Below, in pieces: positions 11,761 through 23,530 of a stretch of 64,000 bases of DNA; positions within the stretch are counted from its first letter, which is position 1; every line of letters begins with the position of its first letter. The translations under genes were made by a program, and so were the position numbers. Source of the stretch: a bacterium (lineage in GTDB: Bacteria > SZUA-79 > Acidulodesulfobacterales > Acidulodesulfobacteraceae); assembly GCA_021777135.1 (NCBI GenBank), contig JAJYDX010000007.1, forward strand, positions 1 through 64,000, given 5' to 3'. The notes beneath the pieces are model-generated. The model saw nothing but the letters and a program-made list of their open reading frames with translations, had not been told where the DNA came from and did no database searches.

Positions 11761-12882
11761 ATGGAAATATATTCCGATTTTAAAAGAAAAGATGATATAG
11801 AAAGACTGATTTCCGCTATACGCGATGAGATTAAAAGACCGGTCAATATAATGGAAATATGCGGCGGACATACTCATGCCATTATGAAATACGGATTAAA
11901 TATTCTTCTTAAAGACAAAATAAATTTTCTTCACGGACCGGGTTGTCCAGTCTGCGTTATGCCTGTTAACAGAATAGACGAGGCAATAGAAATTGTTAAT
12001 TCTGCAGGCGTCATACTTGCGGTATACGGCGATATGATGCGCGTTCCCGGAACAAGTAGCTCGCTTATAAAAGAACGGGCAAAAGGCAAAGACGTAAGGA
12101 TGATATATTCCCCCCTTGATATTATTAAAATCGCCGAAGATAAATCCCATAAAAATAAAAAAATAGTTTTTTTCGCGATAGGATTTGAAACTACGACACC
12201 AATGACCGCAGCCCTTCTCGAAGAAATTATAAAAAGGGGAATAGACAATGTTTTCATACATGTCAATCATGTTCTCGTACCTCCCCCGATAAACGCCATA
12301 TTAGATTCCGGAGATAGTCTGATAGACGGTTTTATTTGTCCTGGACACGTCAGCGTTATGACCGGAAGCGGAATATATGCGGATATCCCCCATAAATACG
12401 GCAAGGCGGCGGTTATTACCGGATTCGAGCCTTACGATATATTGAGCGGAGCGCTTTTAATGATACGGCAGATTAACGAAAAAAGACCTTCGGTAGAAAT
12501 TGCGTATAAAAGGGCGGTTAATGAAGACGGTAATAAGAAAGCACAGGATTTGGTAAATAAATATTTTACGGTAAGGGAAGAATTCGAGTGGAGAGGATTC
12601 GGCAAAATTCCTAAAAGCGGATTAAAATTAAAAAACGAGTTTAAAGATTTTGATGCCGAAATAATTTTTAAAAGTAAATTAGAAGAATTGTATATGCAAT
12701 TGGAATCAGGTCGAACCCGCAAAGAAAGTCTTCTATGCAAATGCGGAGAAATATTAAAGGGAAAATCAAAACCTGACGACTGTCCGTTGTTCGGTAAAAC
12801 GTGTAATCCTGAAAATCCTATAGGAGCATGCATGGTTTCTTCCGAAGGGGCATGCGCCGCTTATTATAAATACCGATATTGA
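11761..12882 (+). CDS. hypD: Hydrogenase maturation protein HypD
   Basis: A 373-residue iron-sulfur protein that, with HypC, forms the scaffold on which the Fe(CN)2CO unit of [NiFe] hydrogenases is built. All signature motifs are visible: ICGGHTHA, GPGCPVC, FAIGFETTTP, CPGHVSVMTG and FEPYD. The C-terminal cysteine pattern (CKCGEIL, DCPLFGKTC, GACMVSSEGAC) binds the [4Fe-4S] cluster. Length is typical. It heads a forward run hypD-hypC-hypE-hypF. No ribosome binding site is seen, and a TATAAT lies eight bases before the ATG, which would fit a leaderless transcript. Confidence 0.97.
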   Translation: MEIYSDFKRKDDIERLISAIRDEIKRPVNIMEICGGHTHAIMKYGLNILLKDKINFLHGPGCPVCVMPVNRIDEAIEIVNSAGVILAVYGDMMRVPGTSSSLIKERAKGKDVRMIYSPLDIIKIAEDKSHKNKKIVFFAIGFETTTPMTAALLEEIIKRGIDNVFIHVNHVLVPPPINAILDSGDSLIDGFICPGHVSVMTGSGIYADIPHKYGKAAVITGFEPYDILSGALLMIRQINEKRPSVEIAYKRAVNEDGNKKAQDLVNKYFTVREEFEWRGFGKIPKSGLKLKNEFKDFDAEIIFKSKLEELYMQLESGRTRKESLLCKCGEILKGKSKPDDCPLFGKTCNPENPIGACMVSSEGACAAYYKYRY

Positions 12883-12937: not shown

Positions 12938-13165
12938 ATGTGCCTTGCAATTCCATCAAAAGTTATTGAAATAAATGACGATAATACCGTTATCGTCGAT
13001 ACTATGGGTTCTAAAAGGCTTGTTTCTACTATGCTTCTAGAAGAGTCAGCCCGCATAGGCGATTATCTGCTGATACACGTCGGATACGCGATGCAAAAAA
13101 TAAACGAAAAAGAAGCTATGGAAAGCCTTAACCTGTTCAGGGAAATAGAAAATAAAATTGAATAA
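12938..13165 (+). CDS. hypC: Hydrogenase maturation chaperone HypC
   Basis: A 75-residue HypC/HybG-family protein starting with the invariant MCLAIP, whose Cys2 (N-terminal after Met removal) binds iron and contacts both HypD and the immature large subunit. The rest (VDTMGSKRLVSTMLLEE, GDYLLIHVGYAM) matches the family's small beta-barrel. It lies between hypD and hypE. Its last bases overlap the hypE start, indicating translational coupling. Confidence 0.96.
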   Translation: MCLAIPSKVIEINDDNTVIVDTMGSKRLVSTMLLEESARIGDYLLIHVGYAMQKINEKEAMESLNLFREIENKIE

Positions 13166-14330
13166 TACAAAATACGACAGAATATTGCTTTCTCATGGCG
13201 GAGGAGGAAAAGAGACCTCCGAACTTATAGGAAGCATTATATTTAACGGACTTTACGGACAAAAAGGAATAGACGCAGATAAGTACGACAAATACGGCTT
13301 CAGCTCCAGCGATAGGCATAAAGACGTTTGTTATGCCCAAAATATATCTGGGCAAAAAATAAAGTTATTGGAAGATGCCGCAGTTTTAAAATCTCCGCAA
13401 AATATTGCTTTTACCACTGATTGTTTTACCGTTAAACCAATTTTTTTTAAAGGCGGCGATATTGGAAAACTATCTGTTGCGGGAACGGTTAACGACCTTT
13501 CTGTTATGGGAGCTAAGCCCCTATTTCTAAGTCTTGGATTTATAATAGAAGAAGGGTTTTTCCTGGCAGATTTAGAAAAAATCATAAAAAGTATTTCGGA
13601 TGAGTCCGCTAAAACCGGAGTCATGGTCGTAACTGGAGATACAAAAGTTGTTCCCGCTGGAAAAGCCGACGGTATTTTTATTAATACCAGTGGAATAGGA
13701 GAAATTATATACGACGGTCTTTCCGTTTTCAATATAGCTCCAGGCGATATAATTATCGTTTCCGGCAATGTCGGCGACCACGGCGCCGCGGTAATGTCGC
13801 GTAGGGAAGGGATAGAAATGGACGTGGAAATAGAAAGCGACTGCGCTTCATTATGGGACATGATAGACTCGGTATTAAAATCGGTTACAGGGATAAGCGC
13901 AATAAGAGATGCTACGAGGGGAGGGCTTGCCGCTGTACTTAACGAGTGGGCTATAGCGGCGGAAGCCGATATTTATGCTGAAGAAAATAAAATTCCGGTA
14001 AACGATGCTGTAAAAGGTTTTTGCGAACTTCTCGGCTTCGAGCCTTATCAACTTGCTTGCGAGGGCATGGCTGTTTTTGCTGTAAAGCCGGAATTTGCCG
14101 AGGAAGCGCTAAACGTTATTAAATCCCATTCTCTTGGAAAAAATGCAAGTATAATAGGAACTGTAGTCGGCAATAATAATTTTGCAGGCGGAAAAGACGA
14201 AGCAAGGCAAACAAAAGTAAATGCCGGAAGTATTCGGCAATCGGCAGGAAAAGTTATATTAAAAGGTATTTACGGCGTAAACAGGCTTCTGGATTATCCT
14301 TCAGGCGAACTTTTGCCTAGAATATGCTAA
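13158..14330 (+). CDS. hypE: Hydrogenase maturation protein HypE
   Basis: A 390-residue PurM-like ATPase that dehydrates the thiocarbamate on its own C-terminal cysteine to thiocyanate, donating the cyanide ligands. The N-terminal LLSHGGGGKE and the C-terminal PRIC, whose last cysteine carries the carbamoyl group, are both intact. The start is TTG, overlapping the end of hypC by eight bases; no ATG is available near the conserved N-terminus. It works with HypF, encoded next. Confidence 0.96.
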   Translation: MNNTKYDRILLSHGGGGKETSELIGSIIFNGLYGQKGIDADKYDKYGFSSSDRHKDVCYAQNISGQKIKLLEDAAVLKSPQNIAFTTDCFTVKPIFFKGGDIGKLSVAGTVNDLSVMGAKPLFLSLGFIIEEGFFLADLEKIIKSISDESAKTGVMVVTGDTKVVPAGKADGIFINTSGIGEIIYDGLSVFNIAPGDIIIVSGNVGDHGAAVMSRREGIEMDVEIESDCASLWDMIDSVLKSVTGISAIRDATRGGLAAVLNEWAIAAEADIYAEENKIPVNDAVKGFCELLGFEPYQLACEGMAVFAVKPEFAEEALNVIKSHSLGKNASIIGTVVGNNNFAGGKDEARQTKVNAGSIRQSAGKVILKGIYGVNRLLDYPSGELLPRIC

Positions 14331-14368: not shown

Positions 14369-17083
14369 ATGCAAAGAGCCGTTATTAAATTATCCGGCAG
14401 GGTTCAAGGAGTTGGTTTCAGGCCTTTTGTTTACAGGCTTGCCGAAAAATATAGAATAAAGGGTTATGTTTTAAATAATATGGAAGGGGTTGAAATATTA
14501 GCCGAAGGCGAAGATAACAACCTTTTAAGTTTCATAGAATCGTTGGATTTGGAAAAACCCCCCCTTGCCGTAATAAATAATAAATACGTTGATTTTACTG
14601 AGCCAGTACCATTTTTTTATAAAAATTTTGAAATTAAAGAATCCGATAAAACAGTCAATAAAAACTATACAAGCTTAACTATTCCGCCAGATATCGCCAT
14701 ATGCGACAAATGTTTAGATGAAATTTTTAACCCTTCCGACAGGAGATATTTATATCCGTTTATAAACTGTACAGACTGCGGACCAAGATTTACCATATCT
14801 AAAGGGCTGCCATACGACAGGGTTTCGACGTCTATGGAAAAATTTAAAATGTGCCCTGAATGTCGAGAAGAATATATAAATCCTTTAAGCAGAAGATTTC
14901 ATGCGGAACCGAACGGATGTTTCGCCTGCGGTCCTGAAATAAAATTCATATTAAGCTCCAATGTAATAATTGATAATGTCTATAAAATAAATTATTTTAA
15001 AAACGGATTGGACTTAGACATCAGTTTGGATAAAATTGCCGCAAATAATGAATATATTAAGTTAAATCGATTAAAAAGTTTAGATGCGGTAAAATCAATA
15101 GTAGATTTAATCAAAGGCGGCGGAATAGCCTGCGTTAAGGGTATAGGCGGGTTCCATTTAATGGCTGACGCTGCAAACGACGATGCCTTAAAATTATTAA
15201 GAGAACGTAAAAACAGACCTAAAAAACCTTTTGCGGTATTGTTTAAGGATATGGAGCAGGTATTAAAATATGCTTATATAGACGATATTTCCGCTGACTT
15301 GCTGACGGCAAAAGAACGGCCGATATGCTTGTTGAAGGACAGAAGCCTTTTGTCTTATTACGTAAACTGCGGACTGAAAGATATAGGCGTATTTTTGCCT
15401 TACGCCCCGCTCCATTATATTATATTGAATGTTTTTGGCTCGCCTTTGGTGACAACATCGGCAAACATTGGCGGAGAACCAATAATAAAAGATAACGAAG
15501 AGGCGCTCTTAAAACTTAACGGAATTGCCGACGGTTTTTTAATTCATAACAGGGACATTTTAAGGAGATGCGACGATTCGGTTATAAAAACGCCTTTTTT
15601 TATCAGGCGGTCGAGAGGTTATGTTCCAGACCCGTTTGCTCCGCCCTTTGATTTAAAAAGAAATGTTTTAGCTGTGGGAGCTTTTCTCAAAAACACGTTT
15701 GCTATCGCATACGGAGATACGCTTTCCAGAGATAATGCCGGCGTTTTAAATGATGCTATTATAGGAAAAAATGCCGATACCGCATACGCAGATAATGGCT
15801 TAAGAGGCAAGGAGATAAGCCGCATAATATTAAGCCAGTACAACGGAGACTTGGACAACCTTGCCGGGTTAATAAATTTTAAGGAAAATATAAAAGATTT
15901 TGAAAAATTTTATAATTTCAAGCCTGACGTCGTAGTCTGCGATGCCCATCCTTCTTACGAAAATACGAAATGGGCAAAAGATTACGCAAGCAAAAAAGGA
16001 ATAAAATGCCTGTTTCTTCAGCACCACAGGGCGCATGTTATTTCCTGTATGGCGGAAAACGGCATCGGTAAAGACGAAGAAGTCTTTGGAATAGCTTTCG
16101 ACGGAACGGGTTACGGCGACGACGGAACTATATGGGGCGGGGAATTTTTTAAGGGAACTTATAAAGATTTAAAAAGGATAGGCAGTTTTAAAAAATTCAG
16201 GCTAATCGGCGGCGAAAAAGCCGTTAAATCGCCAAAAAGGATTTTGCTTGCAATTTTATTTGACATATTTACGCAAGGTAGAAATTCTTTTAAAGCAGAT
16301 TTACCTGCTGGTGTTTTGAACATTATCTCGGACTTGACCGGATTTTCAGAAAAAGATATAAGCAATTTTTTAAAAATGTGGAAAAACGGTGTAAATTCGC
16401 CTTATACGACTTCCTGCGGAAGAATTTTTGACGCAGTTTCCTGTTTGTGCGGATTTAAGAGTGATATTACGTATGAGGGGGAAGCGGCGGTATATCTGGA
16501 AGATTTATGCTCCGAAAGCGTAAACGAAAATGAAATTAATAGCTCAAGCGAAAACGTAAGTAAAAGTAAAAAAGCAAGAACGGAGGAACCATTTTGCGAT
16601 AAAGACCGGCATAAGTTTAATTATTACCAAAACGGGAAAATAGAGGACAACGAAATAAAAGAAGATGGCAGTAAAAAAAGCTTTTTTAATTATTCTATGG
16701 ACTATGAAAAAGGGTCGGATTTCTTTACGGTAAATTATAATCTAATGTTTTTAGATATGATTAAAGCTATTTGCAATAATCATAATAATGGCTACAGCGG
16801 TCCGGACGGCTTAAAACCTATAATGCCTGCTATTATGAATAAAAGCATCGCACGTAAATTTATTAATACGCTTGTAGCGATTATTAAAGATGCATCGGCT
16901 ACGGTTAAATGCAAAAACGTCTGTATAAGCGGGGGAGTTTTTCAAAATAGCTTACTCAGGAATAAAACATCTTTAATTCTTAAAGAAAATGGTTTTAACG
17001 CCTATTTTAACGAAAAAGTACCGCCAAACGACGGAGGAATTTCTTTAGGTCAGGCAGTTTACGGGGGAATTATAGGCTTATAG
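14369..17083 (+). CDS. hypF: Carbamoyltransferase HypF
   Basis: HypF turns carbamoyl phosphate into carbamoyl-AMP and passes the carbamoyl group to HypE. Domains in order: acylphosphatase (GRVQGVGFRPFVYRLA, 1-90), two zinc-finger-like cysteine sets (CDKC, CTDCG, CPEC, CFACG, 110-190), a YrdC-like domain (from about 240, GGIACVKGIGGFHLMADA) and a Kae1-like C-terminal domain (QHHRAHVISCMAENG, FDGTGYGDDGTIWGGEF). At 904 residues it is longer than the usual 740-780. Extra length comes mainly from a hydrophilic, low-complexity insertion at about 711-785 and a smaller one near 195-230. The stop overlaps by six bases the end of the convergent hyaD gene. Confidence 0.96.
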   Translation: MQRAVIKLSGRVQGVGFRPFVYRLAEKYRIKGYVLNNMEGVEILAEGEDNNLLSFIESLDLEKPPLAVINNKYVDFTEPVPFFYKNFEIKESDKTVNKNYTSLTIPPDIAICDKCLDEIFNPSDRRYLYPFINCTDCGPRFTISKGLPYDRVSTSMEKFKMCPECREEYINPLSRRFHAEPNGCFACGPEIKFILSSNVIIDNVYKINYFKNGLDLDISLDKIAANNEYIKLNRLKSLDAVKSIVDLIKGGGIACVKGIGGFHLMADAANDDALKLLRERKNRPKKPFAVLFKDMEQVLKYAYIDDISADLLTAKERPICLLKDRSLLSYYVNCGLKDIGVFLPYAPLHYIILNVFGSPLVTTSANIGGEPIIKDNEEALLKLNGIADGFLIHNRDILRRCDDSVIKTPFFIRRSRGYVPDPFAPPFDLKRNVLAVGAFLKNTFAIAYGDTLSRDNAGVLNDAIIGKNADTAYADNGLRGKEISRIILSQYNGDLDNLAGLINFKENIKDFEKFYNFKPDVVVCDAHPSYENTKWAKDYASKKGIKCLFLQHHRAHVISCMAENGIGKDEEVFGIAFDGTGYGDDGTIWGGEFFKGTYKDLKRIGSFKKFRLIGGEKAVKSPKRILLAILFDIFTQGRNSFKADLPAGVLNIISDLTGFSEKDISNFLKMWKNGVNSPYTTSCGRIFDAVSCLCGFKSDITYEGEAAVYLEDLCSESVNENEINSSSENVSKSKKARTEEPFCDKDRHKFNYYQNGKIEDNEIKEDGSKKSFFNYSMDYEKGSDFFTVNYNLMFLDMIKAICNNHNNGYSGPDGLKPIMPAIMNKSIARKFINTLVAIIKDASATVKCKNVCISGGVFQNSLLRNKTSLILKENGFNAYFNEKVPPNDGGISLGQAVYGGIIGL

Positions 17084-17569
17084 CGGTATTATATAATCGG
17101 GATTTATTTTCCAATTTATCCCGAAAGGTTTTATTTCTTCTAAAACGAGATTTTCGAGCTTAGGCATAGCGTCCCTTAAGGGCGGCGATAATTCTGTCCC
17201 GACGCCGGAGCAGTCTTCCGGCGAAACAGCAAAAATAGTTATATCGGGATTGTGTCCCTGCAGCGCGCACATAGTTATTACGTCTATAAACTCGACGTCG
17301 TGCGCAGTTTTTTTCATTAGATTAGCGGGAATATCACCGTTTTTAAATTTAAAAATTCTCCCCGGTCCTTCTTCGGTTTTCAATGCGTCCACCACTATAA
17401 TATCGTCAAGACCGAATATATCGTCAAGCAGCCCGTATCCAAGAGTGCTGCCGTCGATTAATTTAATATCGCCGTTAAAAATATATTTTTCTCTTAGTAA
17501 GTTTATAAAATGAACGCCTAAACCCTCGTCTTTTAAAATGAGATTACCTATTCCTATTATACCCGTCAT
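17078..17569 (-). CDS. hyaD: [NiFe] hydrogenase large-subunit maturation endopeptidase
   Basis: A 163-residue HybD/HyaD-family protease that removes the C-terminal tail of the large subunit after nickel insertion. The N-terminal GIGNLILKDEGLGVH, with Glu15, and VVDAL, with Asp61, and His90 in TAHDVEF correspond to the nickel-binding residues of HybD. It is the last gene of the reverse-strand hydrogenase operon, 50 bases after the cytochrome gene, and its 3' end overlaps hypF. Its presence agrees with the uncleaved tail predicted on the large subunit. Confidence 0.94.
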   Translation of the reverse strand: MTGIIGIGNLILKDEGLGVHFINLLREKYIFNGDIKLIDGSTLGYGLLDDIFGLDDIIVVDALKTEEGPGRIFKFKNGDIPANLMKKTAHDVEFIDVITMCALQGHNPDITIFAVSPEDCSGVGTELSPPLRDAMPKLENLVLEEIKPFGINWKINPDYIIPL

Positions 17570-17619: not shown

Positions 17620-18390
17620 TTATTGAGTTTCCGATTTATTTCTTATGTATTTATAGCCGCCAAAAGGTATAAGAATATCGCCTTCTTTCCACATTACCGA
17701 ACGCCAGACTTCTATGTATATATGATAAGCAATAAATATTATAATCAACCACATTATAAACAGGTGTGCAATAGTAACTCCGGTGAGCCCGCCGAATATG
17801 AAGAGCGTCCAGTCGGTCGAAAAATGCATAAGCCACGGCCACCAAGCGCCAACAGCAGAAGTTCCAGTAAACGAAGCAACATACATCTGAAATCCGGTAA
17901 GCATCTGGAGAAGTATGAGAAGGTGAAAAATCGTAAAGACAAAAGCGTTTAAGGGGTCCTGATATCGCCCGGTTTTTGGCTTATCTTTAAGCGTAAAGTA
18001 ATGTTTAATCATTTTCCACGCTTCTTCAAGTTTGTCTCCGAAAGGTAAAAAGCTTTTATAAAGAGGCTCTTTCCATGAAAAAAAAGCCAAATAAAGCCAT
18101 ACGATAAAAATAACGTCTATTAGTACGGCTCCTATAAAATGAAAATCTCTCATCCATGTCATAATAAAAGCCTGATTGGTTTCTCCTGAATTAACTATGC
18201 CGGTGGAAAGAGAGTCGGATTGAGTAGGAGTTTTTCCGAAGAATAAAAAAGGATACGCAATATAAAAGCCTGTGATTATATTATTTATAATTGCCAAAAA
18301 GAAAGTCCAGTGTATTATTCTTTTTATCACAGTCATCCTATGGACCAGATTTATTTCACCGTATTTATTTATATTTTCTTTATTTTCCAT
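17620..18390 (-). CDS. hyaC: Hydrogenase b-type cytochrome subunit
   Basis: A 256-residue membrane protein with four main transmembrane helices, matching the HyaC/HupC cytochrome b561-like family that anchors the hydrogenase and passes electrons to quinone. Candidate haem-ligand histidines lie in VHRMTVIKRIIHW, MRDFHFIG, FTIFHLLILLQ and IIFIAYHIYIEVWRS. The gene follows the large subunit by 51 bases. Its presence makes a respiratory, H2-consuming direction likely. Confidence 0.93.
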   Translation of the reverse strand: MENKENINKYGEINLVHRMTVIKRIIHWTFFLAIINNIITGFYIAYPFLFFGKTPTQSDSLSTGIVNSGETNQAFIMTWMRDFHFIGAVLIDVIFIVWLYLAFFSWKEPLYKSFLPFGDKLEEAWKMIKHYFTLKDKPKTGRYQDPLNAFVFTIFHLLILLQMLTGFQMYVASFTGTSAVGAWWPWLMHFSTDWTLFIFGGLTGVTIAHLFIMWLIIIFIAYHIYIEVWRSVMWKEGDILIPFGGYKYIRNKSETQ

Positions 18391-18441: not shown

Positions 18442-20127
18442 TCAGCATACCCTAAATTTTTTTATTTCGTTAGTTTTAGGGTCTATTAAGTGAACGGCAC
18501 AGGCTAAACACGGGTCGAAAGAATGAACGGTCCGTAAAATTTCGAGGGGCTGAGAAGGATTTGCAAGCTTAACGCCGACAAGCGACGCCTCGTATGCGCC
18601 GGGATTATTAAAGGCATCTCTTGGAGACGCGTTCCAAGTCGTTGGAACTACGATTTGATAATGGGTAATCTGTTTGTTTTTTATCCTTACCCAATGACCT
18701 AGCGAGCCCCTGGGAGCTTCGTCCAAACCGATGCCTACAATTTCTTTAGAAGGCATGTCGTAGTGCGTCCAGCTAGACTGGTCTACAGCGGCATTTTTAA
18801 TTAAATCAAGCGTCCATGTTTCCAATGCATCGGCCACGTATTTTGCCTCTATACCCCTTGCCGCCGTTCTGCCTAGCGTTGAGAAGAGAGCGGTTACGGG
18901 TAATCCTGCTGTTTTTAAGACATAATCAACTAAGGATTTTATTGTTTTATTTCCTTTTGCGTATGCCACTAAAGTTCTTGCGAGAGGACCGACTTCCATG
19001 GCTTTATTTTCATAACGTGGAGATTTAATCCAGCTGTATTTTTCGTCTTCTTTAAGGCTGCCGTCTTTATTTAATCCAGTGTAATCCGGATCAGTAATTC
19101 CAACAGAAGGGTTGAGCCCTACCTTTTCATCTGGATATTTATACCATGAATGGGTTACGAATTCTGTTATTTTCTTTTCGTCTAAATTGTGCACTTTGCT
19201 TAAATCCCTGTCAAAAATAACACCTCTCATCAGGAAATAATCGTCCGGACTTTCATCGTCAGTCTGCGGAAAAGCACCGTATGAAAGATAGTTTTTAAGC
19301 CCGCCCCCTATTCCCTGAATGGCTTCGTCTTTATAAAATTCTGCCGCAGCAAGCAAATCCGGTATGTATGCGTTATTTACGAAATCGGTTATTTTACCTA
19401 TCCTGAATAAGATATCATCCATTCTTTGAGGATTAATAATATCGGCAATCGAAGATATTCCGCCTACAACACAAGTTTGCGGATGCGGGTCTTTTGCGCC
19501 GAGAATTGCTATAATTTGCGCTGGTATTCTAAGGATGTTAAGATTGTCTAAATAGTGTGAAGCTATTAATAAATTGCCCTCAGGCGGTAGTTTATAAGAG
19601 GGGTTTCCCCAATAACCACCTGCAAAAGGACCTAATTGACCTGATTTGACGAAATTAGCAAGACGCGTTTTTACTTCTTCAAATCTTGCAAGACTTGCGT
19701 TGTATGGAGTTTTAGTATAGGCATATGCTAAATCCATGGTTTTCTTAGGGTCTGCTTTAAGAGCAGATACAATATCTACCCAGTCTAGACCTGCAAGCTG
19801 ATAAAAATGGACTAAGTGGTCCTGAACCATTTGGGCGCCTTTAAGAATATTTCTTGCGATTCTGGCGTTTTTTGGCGGATGTATTCCAAGCGCGTTTTCG
19901 ACCGCCCATGTTGCCGCTTCATAATGCGCGTAAGTACATACGCCGCAAATCCTCTGGGCGAAAAGTCCAGCATCTTCGGGAGCTCTTCCGTTAAGGATAA
20001 GTTCTATTCCTCTAAAAAGCGTGCCGGAAGAATGAGCTTCGCTAATTTCACTGCCGTTTAGCGAGGCTTCTATCCTGAGATGACCTTCTATCCTTGTAAC
20101 GGGATCCACTATAATTTTTGTCGCCAT
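18442..20127 (-). CDS. hyaB: [NiFe] hydrogenase large subunit
   Basis: The 561-residue catalytic subunit binding the NiFe(CN)2CO centre. The N-terminal nickel ligands lie in RICGVC (Cys61, Cys64) and the C-terminal ones in DPCLACAVH (Cys540, Cys543, with His546). The peptide continues 15 residues beyond His546 (ending KKFRVC), the tail removed by HyaD. The features fit a respiratory group 1 enzyme. GGAGG lies upstream of the ATG. It follows the small-subunit gene by 48 bases, the usual order for exported heterodimers. Confidence 0.97.
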   Translation of the reverse strand: MATKIIVDPVTRIEGHLRIEASLNGSEISEAHSSGTLFRGIELILNGRAPEDAGLFAQRICGVCTYAHYEAATWAVENALGIHPPKNARIARNILKGAQMVQDHLVHFYQLAGLDWVDIVSALKADPKKTMDLAYAYTKTPYNASLARFEEVKTRLANFVKSGQLGPFAGGYWGNPSYKLPPEGNLLIASHYLDNLNILRIPAQIIAILGAKDPHPQTCVVGGISSIADIINPQRMDDILFRIGKITDFVNNAYIPDLLAAAEFYKDEAIQGIGGGLKNYLSYGAFPQTDDESPDDYFLMRGVIFDRDLSKVHNLDEKKITEFVTHSWYKYPDEKVGLNPSVGITDPDYTGLNKDGSLKEDEKYSWIKSPRYENKAMEVGPLARTLVAYAKGNKTIKSLVDYVLKTAGLPVTALFSTLGRTAARGIEAKYVADALETWTLDLIKNAAVDQSSWTHYDMPSKEIVGIGLDEAPRGSLGHWVRIKNKQITHYQIVVPTTWNASPRDAFNNPGAYEASLVGVKLANPSQPLEILRTVHSFDPCLACAVHLIDPKTNEIKKFRVC

Positions 20128-20175: not shown

Positions 20176-21438
20176 TTAATCTTCTTTTTTGGAAGAAGAT
20201 TTTTTAGTTTCATTTTTCTTTTTAATTCCCGTATATATTGCATGCGCTGCGATTCCGACGCCGGCCGCACCTAAAAGAGCTACGCCAAATTCATCGGCTG
20301 TAGCTTCTACGCCTGGAATTATAATCTTTGCATCGGCGTTAGGTTTCTCGAACGGGGTCATCCTATCCCAGAAAACAGGTTCCGAGCAGCCTATGCATCC
20401 GTGCCCGGCGCGCATAGGAAAACTCGTATCCTGATTGTATTCGGCGGTAGTGCAGTTGTTCCATGTAAAAGGACCCTTGCAGCCCATCATATAAAGGCAG
20501 TATTCTTTTTTTGCCCCTGCGTCGCCCCAGTGCCTGACGTATTCTCCAGCTTCAAAATGCCCCCTGCGATAACAGTTATCGTGAAGCCTGCCCGAATATG
20601 CCCATAACGGACGGCCGATATTATCAAGTTGAGGGGCTTTTCCTGTGAGTATGTATTCTACAAGAGTACCGACTACGTTTACGGGATTTGCCGGACAAGC
20701 CGGAATATTTATAACGCTTCTGTTTGTAACCGAACTAAGACCAACGGCGTTTGTAGGGTTGGGGGAAGCGGCAGGTATCCCGCCGTAAGCAGCGCAGTTA
20801 CCTATTGCAATTGTAATACCCGCATTTTTTGCGGTTTCTTTAACTATCTTTATGCCGGTATCTCCTTTAGCGCCTATAGTAAGGAATTTTCCGTCCATTC
20901 CGGTAGGAATTGCGCCCTCTACCACAAGTATGTATTTGCCTTTATCTTTTTTAATGGTTTCCGTTCTTCTTGCCTCTGCCTGATATCCTGCCGGGGCCAT
21001 AATAGACTCCATATAGTTAACGCTAACGTAGTTAATAATAATTTCAGCCGGAGTCGGATTTGCGTTTCTTATAAAAGCTTCAGTATTTCCCATGCAGTCC
21101 GCCATATCTAGCCATATAAACGGTGTTCTGGTAAGAATGTTTGCAGCTCTTGCAATTCTTGGTTTAAATATGTAAGGAAGCATCAATGTCGATGTTAAAA
21201 ATGCGCTCCATTTAAGGAAATCTCTTCTGGAAACTCCATAAATGTCAAATATATTGGGGAGGTTGTTTTCTTTTTCTTTAGTGTTCTTAAAATACTCTTT
21301 TTCAAGTTTGTCTAAGCGCTTATCTACTTTTTTTAAAACTTCGTCGGGATTTTTAGAGATAAACCTGAGCGGGTCCCATTTAAATGCGGGTTTTTTTTCT
21401 TTACAGTTATTGTCGCAAGAATGGTTATCATTATCCAT
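20176..21438 (-). CDS. hyaA: [NiFe] hydrogenase small subunit, Tat-exported
   Basis: A 420-residue electron-transfer subunit. Cluster ligands are seen in NCAAYGG, PACPANP, LHDNC, YCLYMMGCKG, WNNC and GHGCIGCSEP, matching the distal and medial clusters and two proximal ligands. A C-terminal helix (about 380-400) should anchor it to the membrane beside HyaC. Two oddities: the first cluster motif, normally CxxC, reads CMGN (Cys115, Asn118; the codon is AAT on the coding strand), and the Tat motif SRRDFLK (70-76) is preceded by about 69 hydrophilic, Lys/Glu-rich residues. No internal Met lies between residue 1 and the twin arginines. A TTAGGAGG ribosome binding site supports the start. It heads the hyaABCD operon. 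Confidence 0.95.
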   Translation of the reverse strand: MDNDNHSCDNNCKEKKPAFKWDPLRFISKNPDEVLKKVDKRLDKLEKEYFKNTKEKENNLPNIFDIYGVSRRDFLKWSAFLTSTLMLPYIFKPRIARAANILTRTPFIWLDMADCMGNTEAFIRNANPTPAEIIINYVSVNYMESIMAPAGYQAEARRTETIKKDKGKYILVVEGAIPTGMDGKFLTIGAKGDTGIKIVKETAKNAGITIAIGNCAAYGGIPAASPNPTNAVGLSSVTNRSVINIPACPANPVNVVGTLVEYILTGKAPQLDNIGRPLWAYSGRLHDNCYRRGHFEAGEYVRHWGDAGAKKEYCLYMMGCKGPFTWNNCTTAEYNQDTSFPMRAGHGCIGCSEPVFWDRMTPFEKPNADAKIIIPGVEATADEFGVALLGAAGVGIAAHAIYTGIKKKNETKKSSSKKED

Positions 21439-21556: not shown

Positions 21557-21584
21557 ATCATATCGCAAATATATAAAATGTCAA
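21557..21584 (-). promoter_or_regulatory. Candidate sigma-70 promoter of the hya operon
   Basis: On the reverse strand TTGACA (21584-21579) and TATGAT (21562-21557) are separated by 16 bases. The predicted start near 21550 leaves a leader of about 110 bases before hyaA. It lies between the divergent hyaA and hypA genes. Confidence 0.45.
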
Positions 21585-21605
21585 ATTAATTTTTTAATAT
21601 ATAAT

Positions 21606-21845
21606 ATGCATGAGTTTTCAATAGCTTTAGAAATACTTGATACGCTTGAGGAAAACGGTTATTTAGACGGCGTAAAAAAAGTAAACTCTGTCAAACTTGC
21701 AATAGGAAAATATTCAGGCATAGATAAAAACTATCTTGAGTTTGCGTTTCAAAATCTTTCCGACGAAAGATTTAAAAATGTTTTTACGGAATTCGTTCCA
21801 AACGATTCCGACGAAATAAAAATAATTGAAATCACGGTTGATTAA
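21606..21845 (+). CDS. hypA: HypA-like nickel protein lacking the zinc-binding domain
   Basis: A 79-residue protein recognisable as HypA by the N-terminal MHEFSIALEILD (His2 is the nickel ligand), VKLAIGKYSGID and YLEFAFQNLS, and by a C-terminal strand DEIKIIEITVD. Ordinary HypA proteins are about 113-120 residues and carry a zinc site made by two CxxC motifs between these parts. Here that stretch is missing and the protein has no cysteine at all, while the reading frame is open on both sides. This looks like a clean internal loss rather than a frameshift. hypB follows after 37 bases, the normal pairing for nickel delivery. Confidence 0.88.
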   Translation: MHEFSIALEILDTLEENGYLDGVKKVNSVKLAIGKYSGIDKNYLEFAFQNLSDERFKNVFTEFVPNDSDEIKIIEITVD

Positions 21846-21882: not shown

Positions 21883-22620
21883 ATGTTAAAATCTAATCGT
21901 TTTAAACGGGTAAGCACTGGCGGAAGATCTTTAACCGTGCAAAAAAATGCTCTTGAATCTAACGAAATTAACGCTAAAAAAAACAAAGCGGTATTTGGTA
22001 AAGCATTTGTTATGAATATTTTAAGTTCGCCGGGTTCAGGAAAGACGTCTTTATTGGAATCAATAGTGCCCGCTTTAAAATTGGAAGGCTTTAACGCAGC
22101 AGTTATAGAGGGGGACGTGGAAACAGACCTCGATAAAAAACGAATTGATAATTTAGGCGTTCCCGCATATCAGATTATTACTAACGGAACATGCCATCTT
22201 GACGCAAAAATGGTGAATGTATCTTTAAACAGCCTCGATATAAAAAATGCAGATGTAATTTTTATAGAAAACGTAGGTAATTTGGTCTGTCCTACGTCTT
22301 TTAACCTTGGAGAAGACATGAAAGTCGTAGTGCTTTCCGTAACCGAAGGAGACGACAAGCCTTTAAAGTACCCGGCGGCTTTCTATAAATCCAAGGTAAT
22401 GATTATCAATAAAACAGACCTGCTTCCCGCTCTTGATTCGGACATAGCAAAAATAAAAGAAAATGCACTGTCTATAAATAAGGAATTGATAATATTTGAA
22501 ACTTCGTGCAGAAAAAAAACAACAGAAAATATTTATAATAAAGGAATTGCCGATTTTGTTTCCTTTGTAAAAGAAAAAATAAGGATTAAAGCGGCCGAGT
22601 TTCAAAAACAGAATATATAA
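21883..22620 (+). CDS. hypB: Hydrogenase nickel-insertion GTPase HypB
   Basis: A 245-residue SIMIBI-class GTPase that delivers nickel to the large subunit with HypA. It has the P-loop SSPGSGKTSL, EGDVETDLD (switch region), the G3-like ENVGN and G4 NKTDL. The metal-site residues of the G domain are kept: Cys-His in GTCHLDA and a cysteine in NLVCP. No histidine-rich nickel-storage stretch is present at the N-terminus. Confidence 0.96.
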   Translation: MLKSNRFKRVSTGGRSLTVQKNALESNEINAKKNKAVFGKAFVMNILSSPGSGKTSLLESIVPALKLEGFNAAVIEGDVETDLDKKRIDNLGVPAYQIITNGTCHLDAKMVNVSLNSLDIKNADVIFIENVGNLVCPTSFNLGEDMKVVVLSVTEGDDKPLKYPAAFYKSKVMIINKTDLLPALDSDIAKIKENALSINKELIIFETSCRKKTTENIYNKGIADFVSFVKEKIRIKAAEFQKQNI

Positions 22621-22639: not shown

Positions 22640-23530
22640 ATGAATATTTGTGCGGCTGGAGACGTTCACGGCAGGATAGATAAATTATACGGTTGCATAA
22701 AAAAATTTGAATCCGAGCTTAATACCAATTTCGACGTTATTTTGCAGGTCGGCGATTTCGGTATATGGATTAATGAATTTTATCATGACGGCATTACAAA
22801 ATTTCATAAAGGCACCGGCGATTTTCCGGCATGGTACAAAGAAAAAAAAACCGCGCCCGTTAAAACATATTTTGTAAACGGCAATAACGAAGATTTTAAC
22901 TTTCTTAATTCCATTAAATTGTCGGGAGATTTGCAGATTATTAAAAATCTGTTTTATATTCCGAATGGAACAGTAACAGATATAAAAGTGAATGTTAAGA
23001 ATCGAACTAAGGATGCAGGAAACAAGTCCGGAGAAGACGCGGTTGACGCTGATAATTCCGGCGACATTCAAAGTCTTATCGTTGCCGGCATAGGCGGAAA
23101 ATACGACGCCGAACATTTTAGATATAACGAGTCAGACAGATACTATACAAAGCGCGAAATAGATAATTTACTTAAATATGCTGAAGAGAATAAAGGAAAT
23201 GAAGATAAAAACATAGATATTTTTATTTCCCATGATGCGCCGGAAGGAGTCCAGATAGAAGATAGCGATAAAAACAGATATTATCCAAAAGCAGTCGGGT
23301 TGCGCGATTTAATTTTAAAAATTAAGCCGAAAATGGTCTTTTTCGGTCATCACCACGGAATATGCAAATCTGATATTGAAGGCATACCGGTTTACGGGCT
23401 TAACGTATTAGGCGGAAAAGGAGCATTGCTTTCAACAGTAATGAGAAGCGGCATTGAAGATGAAAAAGTAAAAAAATATAAGGAAAAGTACAAAGGGGGG
23501 AAGTATTTTGAAAAACCGCTTATTAAATAA
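22640..23530 (+). CDS. Calcineurin-like metallophosphoesterase
   Basis: A 296-residue protein of the metallophosphoesterase superfamily. Metal-binding motifs appear in order: GDVHGR, QVGDFG, NGNNED, ISHDAP and FGHHHG. The substrate cannot be named; close families include Ap4A hydrolase-like and nucleotide phosphodiesterases. It starts 20 bases after hypB and may be transcribed with it, although no link to hydrogenase maturation is known. Its 3' end overlaps the next gene by 23 bases. Confidence 0.82.
   Translation: MNICAAGDVHGRIDKLYGCIKKFESELNTNFDVILQVGDFGIWINEFYHDGITKFHKGTGDFPAWYKEKKTAPVKTYFVNGNNEDFNFLNSIKLSGDLQIIKNLFYIPNGTVTDIKVNVKNRTKDAGNKSGEDAVDADNSGDIQSLIVAGIGGKYDAEHFRYNESDRYYTKREIDNLLKYAEENKGNEDKNIDIFISHDAPEGVQIEDSDKNRYYPKAVGLRDLILKIKPKMVFFGHHHGICKSDIEGIPVYGLNVLGGKGALLSTVMRSGIEDEKVKKYKEKYKGGKYFEKPLIK

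Follow-up and report, generated by a model that had tools for sequence, protein, structure and literature searches.

The stretch of bacterial DNA analysed here, referred to as the window, is 64,000 nucleotides long and carries a [NiFe] hydrogenase together with a set of hyp genes. Two of these, hypA (21606-21845) and hypB (21883-22620), lie on the + strand, back to back with hydrogenase genes on the − strand. The latter encode the small subunit, with a Tat-type N-terminus (20176-21438), the large subunit (18442-20127; PF00374, 677 bits), a cytochrome b-like protein (17620-18390) that is a putative membrane subunit of the hydrogenase by virtue of its operon position and hydrophobic sequence, and a maturation protease (17078-17569; PF01750, and TIGR00072 at 119.2 bits versus 47.45). 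The large subunit is the presumed target for nickel, and retains the nickel-binding cysteine motifs RICGVC and DPCLAC as well as its C-terminal tail. Beyond the hydrogenase genes, and again on the + strand, are hypF (14369-17083; TIGR00143, 732.5 bits), hypE (13158-14330; TIGR02124, 413.7 bits), hypC (12938-13165), which encodes 75 amino acids beginning MCLAIPSKV and was assigned from sequence and position, and hypD (11761-12882; TIGR00075, 476.4 bits). On the other side, hypB is followed directly on the same strand by a gene for a calcineurin-like metallophosphoesterase (22640-23530), and then by one for a secreted-looking protein of 328 amino acids. We know of no role for either in hydrogenase maturation.

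HypB is a nickel-binding GTPase of 245 amino acids, scoring 227 bits with TIGR00073 against a cut-off of 121.2 and matching the HypB structures 4lps, 2hf8 and 2wsm in the PDB. It is intact, with a P-loop and a metal site formed by C104-H105 and C136. Residues 17-19 (L-T-V; 21931-21939, + strand) include the aliphatic L17 and V19, which by register correspond to residues mapped as HypA-docking in the HypB proteins of A. fulgidus and E. coli (PMC3287977).

The hypA reading frame begins with ATG and encodes a protein of 79 amino acids, MHEFSIALEILDTLEENGYLDGVKKVNSVKLAIGKYSGIDKNYLEFAFQNLSDERFKNVFTEFVPNDSDEIKIIEITVD, that contains no cysteine. The nickel end of the protein is retained. The first three codons (21606-21614, + strand) specify the conserved nickel-binding sequence M1-H2-E3, which is unchanged across 22 orthologues and throughout the HypA sequences aligned, and Met1 of this motif is the true N-terminus. 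Over residues 1-56 the protein aligns with HypA of H. pylori (6g81/2kdx) without a gap, and D40 (21723-21725, + strand) falls opposite a proposed nickel ligand of that protein. Alignment with full-length HypA places the missing stretch after a strand of the type ...LEIEEVP and before one of the type (G)xEL.I..IE. What is lost is a loop of about 34 residues holding both CxxC motifs and little else, while the strands on either side of it remain. Residues 67-70 (21804-21815, + strand) form the joint at the place occupied by the zinc domain in full-length HypA. A first-pass annotation of this DNA had described a HypA that keeps the flanks of its zinc loop but has lost both CxxC motifs and every cysteine, adjacent to a complete hypB. 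The alignment, the composition of the reading frame, and the metal site and docking residues of HypB bear this out.

The bases upstream of hypA, both in the window (21580-21606) and at the same place in 21 relatives, are nearly pure A+T, and no recognizable Shine-Dalgarno sequence precedes the gene in any of these. In the window, TATAAT stands immediately before the ATG. Judged from these sequences, translation of hypA is possibly leaderless or weak.

Descriptions of HypA give the protein two metal sites, one for nickel and one for zinc. The short protein shares with canonical HypA and HybF (PF01155, TIGR00100; H. pylori 6g81/2kdx and T. kodakarensis 3a43/5aun) the MHE nickel end, the alpha-beta-alpha-beta-beta nickel domain and a location next to hypB and a hydrogenase. 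Its genetic partnership with hypB, the remaining hyp genes and a hydrogenase of the [NiFe] type is that of a HypA. It also exceeds the gathering score of the Pfam HypA family (PF01155; 43.4 versus 28.9 bits), with a match that covers positions 1-55 of the 112 in the profile. It differs from the canonical proteins in lacking the zinc domain and its CxxC motifs, in its length of 79 rather than about 113-117 amino acids, and in falling below the cut-off of the NCBIfam HypA equivalog (TIGR00100; 33.3 versus 88.1 bits). The Zn(Cys)4 site with its two CxxC motifs is missing in 22 of 22 orthologues.

The fold of the window protein was modeled with AlphaFold2, using an alignment of short and full-length HypA, giving a mean pLDDT of 90.3. 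The model comprises a helix at residues 2-16, a strand at 26-34, a second helix at 41-49 and a C-terminal hairpin with strands at 60-66 and 71-78, the joint forming its turn. In the model, this is the nickel domain of HypA closed by a β-hairpin at the position of the zinc domain. When it was compared with the PDB, the best 14 matches were all HypA. The short HypA is thus predicted to adopt the nickel-domain fold of its family.

The conservation of this form was studied in the phylum to which the window belongs (the Ca. Acidulodesulfobacterales/SZUA-79 lineage), described as comprising uncultured, mostly acid-dwelling bacteria. The sample consisted of 30 genomes from one family, of which 22 contained a HypA above the cut-off. 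All 22 have the 79-amino acid form without zinc domain, with identical length and boundary; among the relatives sharing these genes is Ca. Acididesulfobacter diazotrophicus, by which the window is assigned to this lineage. A single cysteine outside any motif is present in six of the 22. The first-pass annotation had proposed a search for other short, cysteine-free HypA proteins in the lineage; those found are short in every case, and free of cysteine outside these six. The same annotation had named a sequencing error as a possible explanation of the missing domain. Frameshift and mis-assembly are rejected, since the same form occurs in 22 assemblies, some of as few as five and seven contigs.

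Pairwise identity among the orthologues ranges from 46 to 99%, and 29 residues are invariant, including M1, H2, E3, G34 and D40. Silent variation is nevertheless seen in the codons for H2, E3 and D40. D40 is found in only two of 65 full-length HypA sequences sampled. Pairwise dN/dS for hypA (NG86) has a median of 0.16 and stays below 1 in each of the 173 usable pairs; another 58 pairs are saturated. Evidently the short hypA is under purifying selection across the phylum. hypB lies directly 3′ of hypA in each of the 22 genomes, the CH + C metal site of HypB is invariant, and its docking residues are aliphatic throughout. Five of the eight genomes lacking HypA, including the complete genome G028, also lack any [NiFe] large subunit. 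Of the other three, G017 has a large-subunit gene interrupted by the end of a contig, and G023 (59% complete) and G025 (86%) show a second type of hydrogenase only. The window protein is a real variant of a known chaperone, conserved and zinc-free, and does not amount to a new kind of system. As it falls short of canonical HypA in two features, the zinc site and the equivalog score, the most fitting name for it is zinc-domain-less HypA homologue.

We looked for other chaperones in the genome containing the window (2.12 Mb, a draft in 92 contigs that is listed as 100% complete). A profile search found no second HypA there. The first-pass annotation had proposed looking for a full-length hypA or a slyD elsewhere in the genome, and neither was found. 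The weaker HypA matches are to an FmdB-like ribbon protein and to parts of large proteins of 598 and 728 amino acids; provision of the zinc domain in trans was judged unlikely from these. There is no match to FKBP_C in this genome, whereas 13 of 14 control genomes contain one, and SlyD/FKBP is accordingly rejected as a replacement nickel chaperone. A second [NiFe] hydrogenase, of the Vhu/Mvh type, is encoded in the same genome (locus L095, 3830-9856, contig G000:C58), together with its own maturation protease of 212 amino acids and with one HdrA-like and one MvhD-like protein. The single short HypA probably serves both hydrogenases.

Zinc-free HypA is not confined to this phylum. HypA was sought in four other phylum-level groups, with matches in 226, 75, 73 and 75 genomes (about 449), and partial or weak matches were inspected individually for loss of the zinc domain. 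Among the matches listed, at least seven of the 449 genomes (about 1.6%) have an intact zinc-free HypA (G054, G148, G258, G285, G453, G529 and G684), which is a lower bound because cases would be hidden in any genome with a full copy as well. In each of the seven it is the only HypA found. These proteins resemble that of the window in the missing domain, in having about the same boundary, in the MHE sequence, and in a context of hyp or nickel-enzyme genes. In four of them the C-terminal strand resumes at the same boundary after a joint of a few residues; the joint is somewhat longer in G148, G453 and G684, of which G148 and G684 are clearly alike. They differ from the window's phylum in being rare within their own groups, in the longer joint of three, and in not keeping D40. 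D40 was rejected as a residue that might stand in for the zinc domain in general, because it is confined to the window's phylum, with E, S, K or W in its place in the remaining short forms. The short HypA of G054, from another phylum-level group, is predicted by AlphaFold2 to have the same structural elements (pLDDT 92.2).

A further difference concerns hypB, which is intact and adjacent in the window's phylum but has no adjacent copy at six of the seven other zinc-free loci. It is near hypA at only one of the seven (G529), compared with 33 of 40 full-length loci sampled in three of these groups (Fisher p = 0.001, for loci chosen by convenience and in a test that ignores relatedness). Searching the draft genomes in full, HypB was present in G054 and G529, and no HypB above the cut-off was found in G148, G258, G285 and G453. 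In the tree, G370 and G425 are the nearest full-length relatives of G148 and G453, and they too are without a nearby hypB, while G321, the nearest full-length relative of G258, has one. One possible path suggested by these loci is that hypB leaves the cluster first and the zinc domain is lost afterwards, a path from which the window's phylum departs with its intact, adjacent HypB. A tree of the HypA core requires at least four changes, with some of the short forms grouping with full-length relatives, although on 79 columns a single origin of short HypA cannot be rejected (AU p = 0.27).

Gene order at several of these loci provides further observations. G148, G453 and G684 (loci L092, L090 and L164), from three different phylum-level groups, have zinc-free hypA-hypF clusters with no hypB nearby, and their HypA proteins may form a distinct, HypB-independent branch. 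In G684 the gene lies 3′ of a cytoplasmic-type hydrogenase large subunit and its protease. G054 has the order short hypA, hypC, a CO dehydrogenase alpha-like gene and hypD (L091, 115-3730), which links zinc-free HypA to another nickel enzyme. Genome G520 contains a decayed hypA interrupted by frame breaks (L097, 2850-3100), with a fragment resembling the C-terminus of HypF nearby; these are the remains of a hyp cluster.

From studies of full-length HypA, the nickel ligands of the H. pylori protein are the N-terminal amine, His2 and Glu3, with Asp40 a likely addition (PMC5557546, PMC7055735), and in T. kodakarensis His98 completes the nickel site as a further ligand in the complex with HypB (PMC7055735). 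HypA proteins have been reviewed as featuring two metal sites (PMC7055735). Changing the zinc-site cysteines of H. pylori HypA to alanine left 9-36% of hydrogenase activity, compared with 12% in the hypA null, and reduced nickel affinity more than tenfold (PMC5557546). The mutants come close to a knockout of hypA, and a natural zinc-free HypA was for this reason unexpected. Those mutants share the loss of zinc ligands with the short HypA, but they are point mutants of a zinc-dependent protein in which function is for the most part severely lost (PMC5557546), whereas the short HypA is without the whole domain in a form that is conserved. The main text of the paper describing the order makes no mention of hydrogenase, HypA or nickel (PMC6776010), and we found no report of a natural zinc-domain-less HypA in the searchable literature, from which most subscription journals are excluded.

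We consider that the window protein is a minimal HypA, consisting of the nickel domain alone with its flanking strands joined as a hairpin, and that it is probably a working nickel carrier in [NiFe]-hydrogenase maturation, loaded by HypB. The basis for this lies in its anatomy, its conservation throughout the lineage, selection, the predicted fold, its status as sole copy, and the intact partner and target; that the short protein binds and transfers nickel, and in what order, we infer. At its C104/H105/C136 site HypB would collect Ni(II), and through its L-x-V N-terminus it would dock HypA. Nickel would then pass to the N-terminus of HypA, to be held by the M1 amine, H2 and E3 and probably by D40 as an additional ligand. 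HypA would deliver it to a large subunit already carrying Fe(CN)2CO, whereupon the protease would close the site of the large subunit. A pH-dependent zinc switch of the H. pylori type cannot exist in the short HypA. This and the other function ascribed to the zinc domain in H. pylori and Thermococcus, a movement that brings in a ligand, would be either unneeded or replaced by D40 and the hairpin.

The position of hypA divergent to the hydrogenase, the fact that most genomes without hypA lack that hydrogenase, and the same architecture in other phyla, where one protein (G054) is also predicted to fold as HypA, all support a minimal chaperone. Against it are the lowered activity and nickel binding of the H. 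pylori zinc-site mutants (PMC5557546), the absence of a residue equivalent to His98, and the failure of zinc-free HypA in other phyla to keep D40. Alternatively, the short HypA might carry nickel no longer and act as an adaptor by which HypB is docked to the large subunit, with HypB alone supplying the nickel. The short HypA has indeed lost the domain by which nickel affinity is tuned in H. pylori (PMC5557546), and HypB retains a nickel site of its own. We nevertheless regard this as unlikely, as a pure adaptor would not need M1, H2, E3 and D40, which are invariant in 22 of 22 sequences, and several other lineages have a zinc-free HypA with no HypB found.

Could a separate small zinc-ribbon protein join HypA and so provide the zinc domain in trans? 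The FmdB-like CxxC ribbon protein of the same genome (locus L002) matches the HypA profile in its zinc part, and transcripts of fmdB rank with the most abundant in the order (PMC6776010). Yet this weak match (E = 0.01) concerns the ribbon motif. The gene itself is on another contig far from the hyp genes, and in both relatives seen it adjoins an unrelated outer-membrane-efflux-like gene. Moreover, the hypA-hypB region contains no small CxxC gene, and the predicted fold already connects the two flanking strands, all of which makes this explanation very improbable. There is a similarly slight chance that the short HypA has taken on another task, such as regulating the divergent hydrogenase operon, with nickel delivered by another route. 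The protein is small and its gene borders the shared divergent intergenic region, but the constant pairing with hypB, the invariant nickel residues, and the failure to find an alternative chaperone in the genome (no other HypA and no FKBP) all speak against such a role. Lastly, the zinc domain has almost certainly not been removed by sequencing error or decay, for although the source is a draft of 92 contigs and a decayed hypA does exist in G520, the comparison of 22 genomes with identical length and boundary, the dN/dS of 0.16 and the intact predicted fold refute this.

The zinc domain may be dispensable for nickel insertion, with zinc-free HypA a recurrent, functional form that has arisen several times, mostly where hypB is absent from the hyp cluster, and has once become fixed in a phylum that keeps HypB. 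We regard the case for this wider view as evenly balanced. If it is true, the zinc domain would be a regulatory module or one belonging to the HypB cycle, outside the core machine of nickel transfer. Structure, pH sensing, conformational switching with HypB and docking to the target are all candidate roles for that domain. The apparent association in other lineages between loss of the zinc domain and a missing hypB leads directly to a hypothesis on what the domain does. A HypA of 79 amino acids that is fixed in one phylum and recurrent elsewhere offers a natural test object for this role, as a protein that evolution has adapted to work without the domain and that is open to measurement of its affinity for nickel, its exchange with HypB and the maturation of the hydrogenase.
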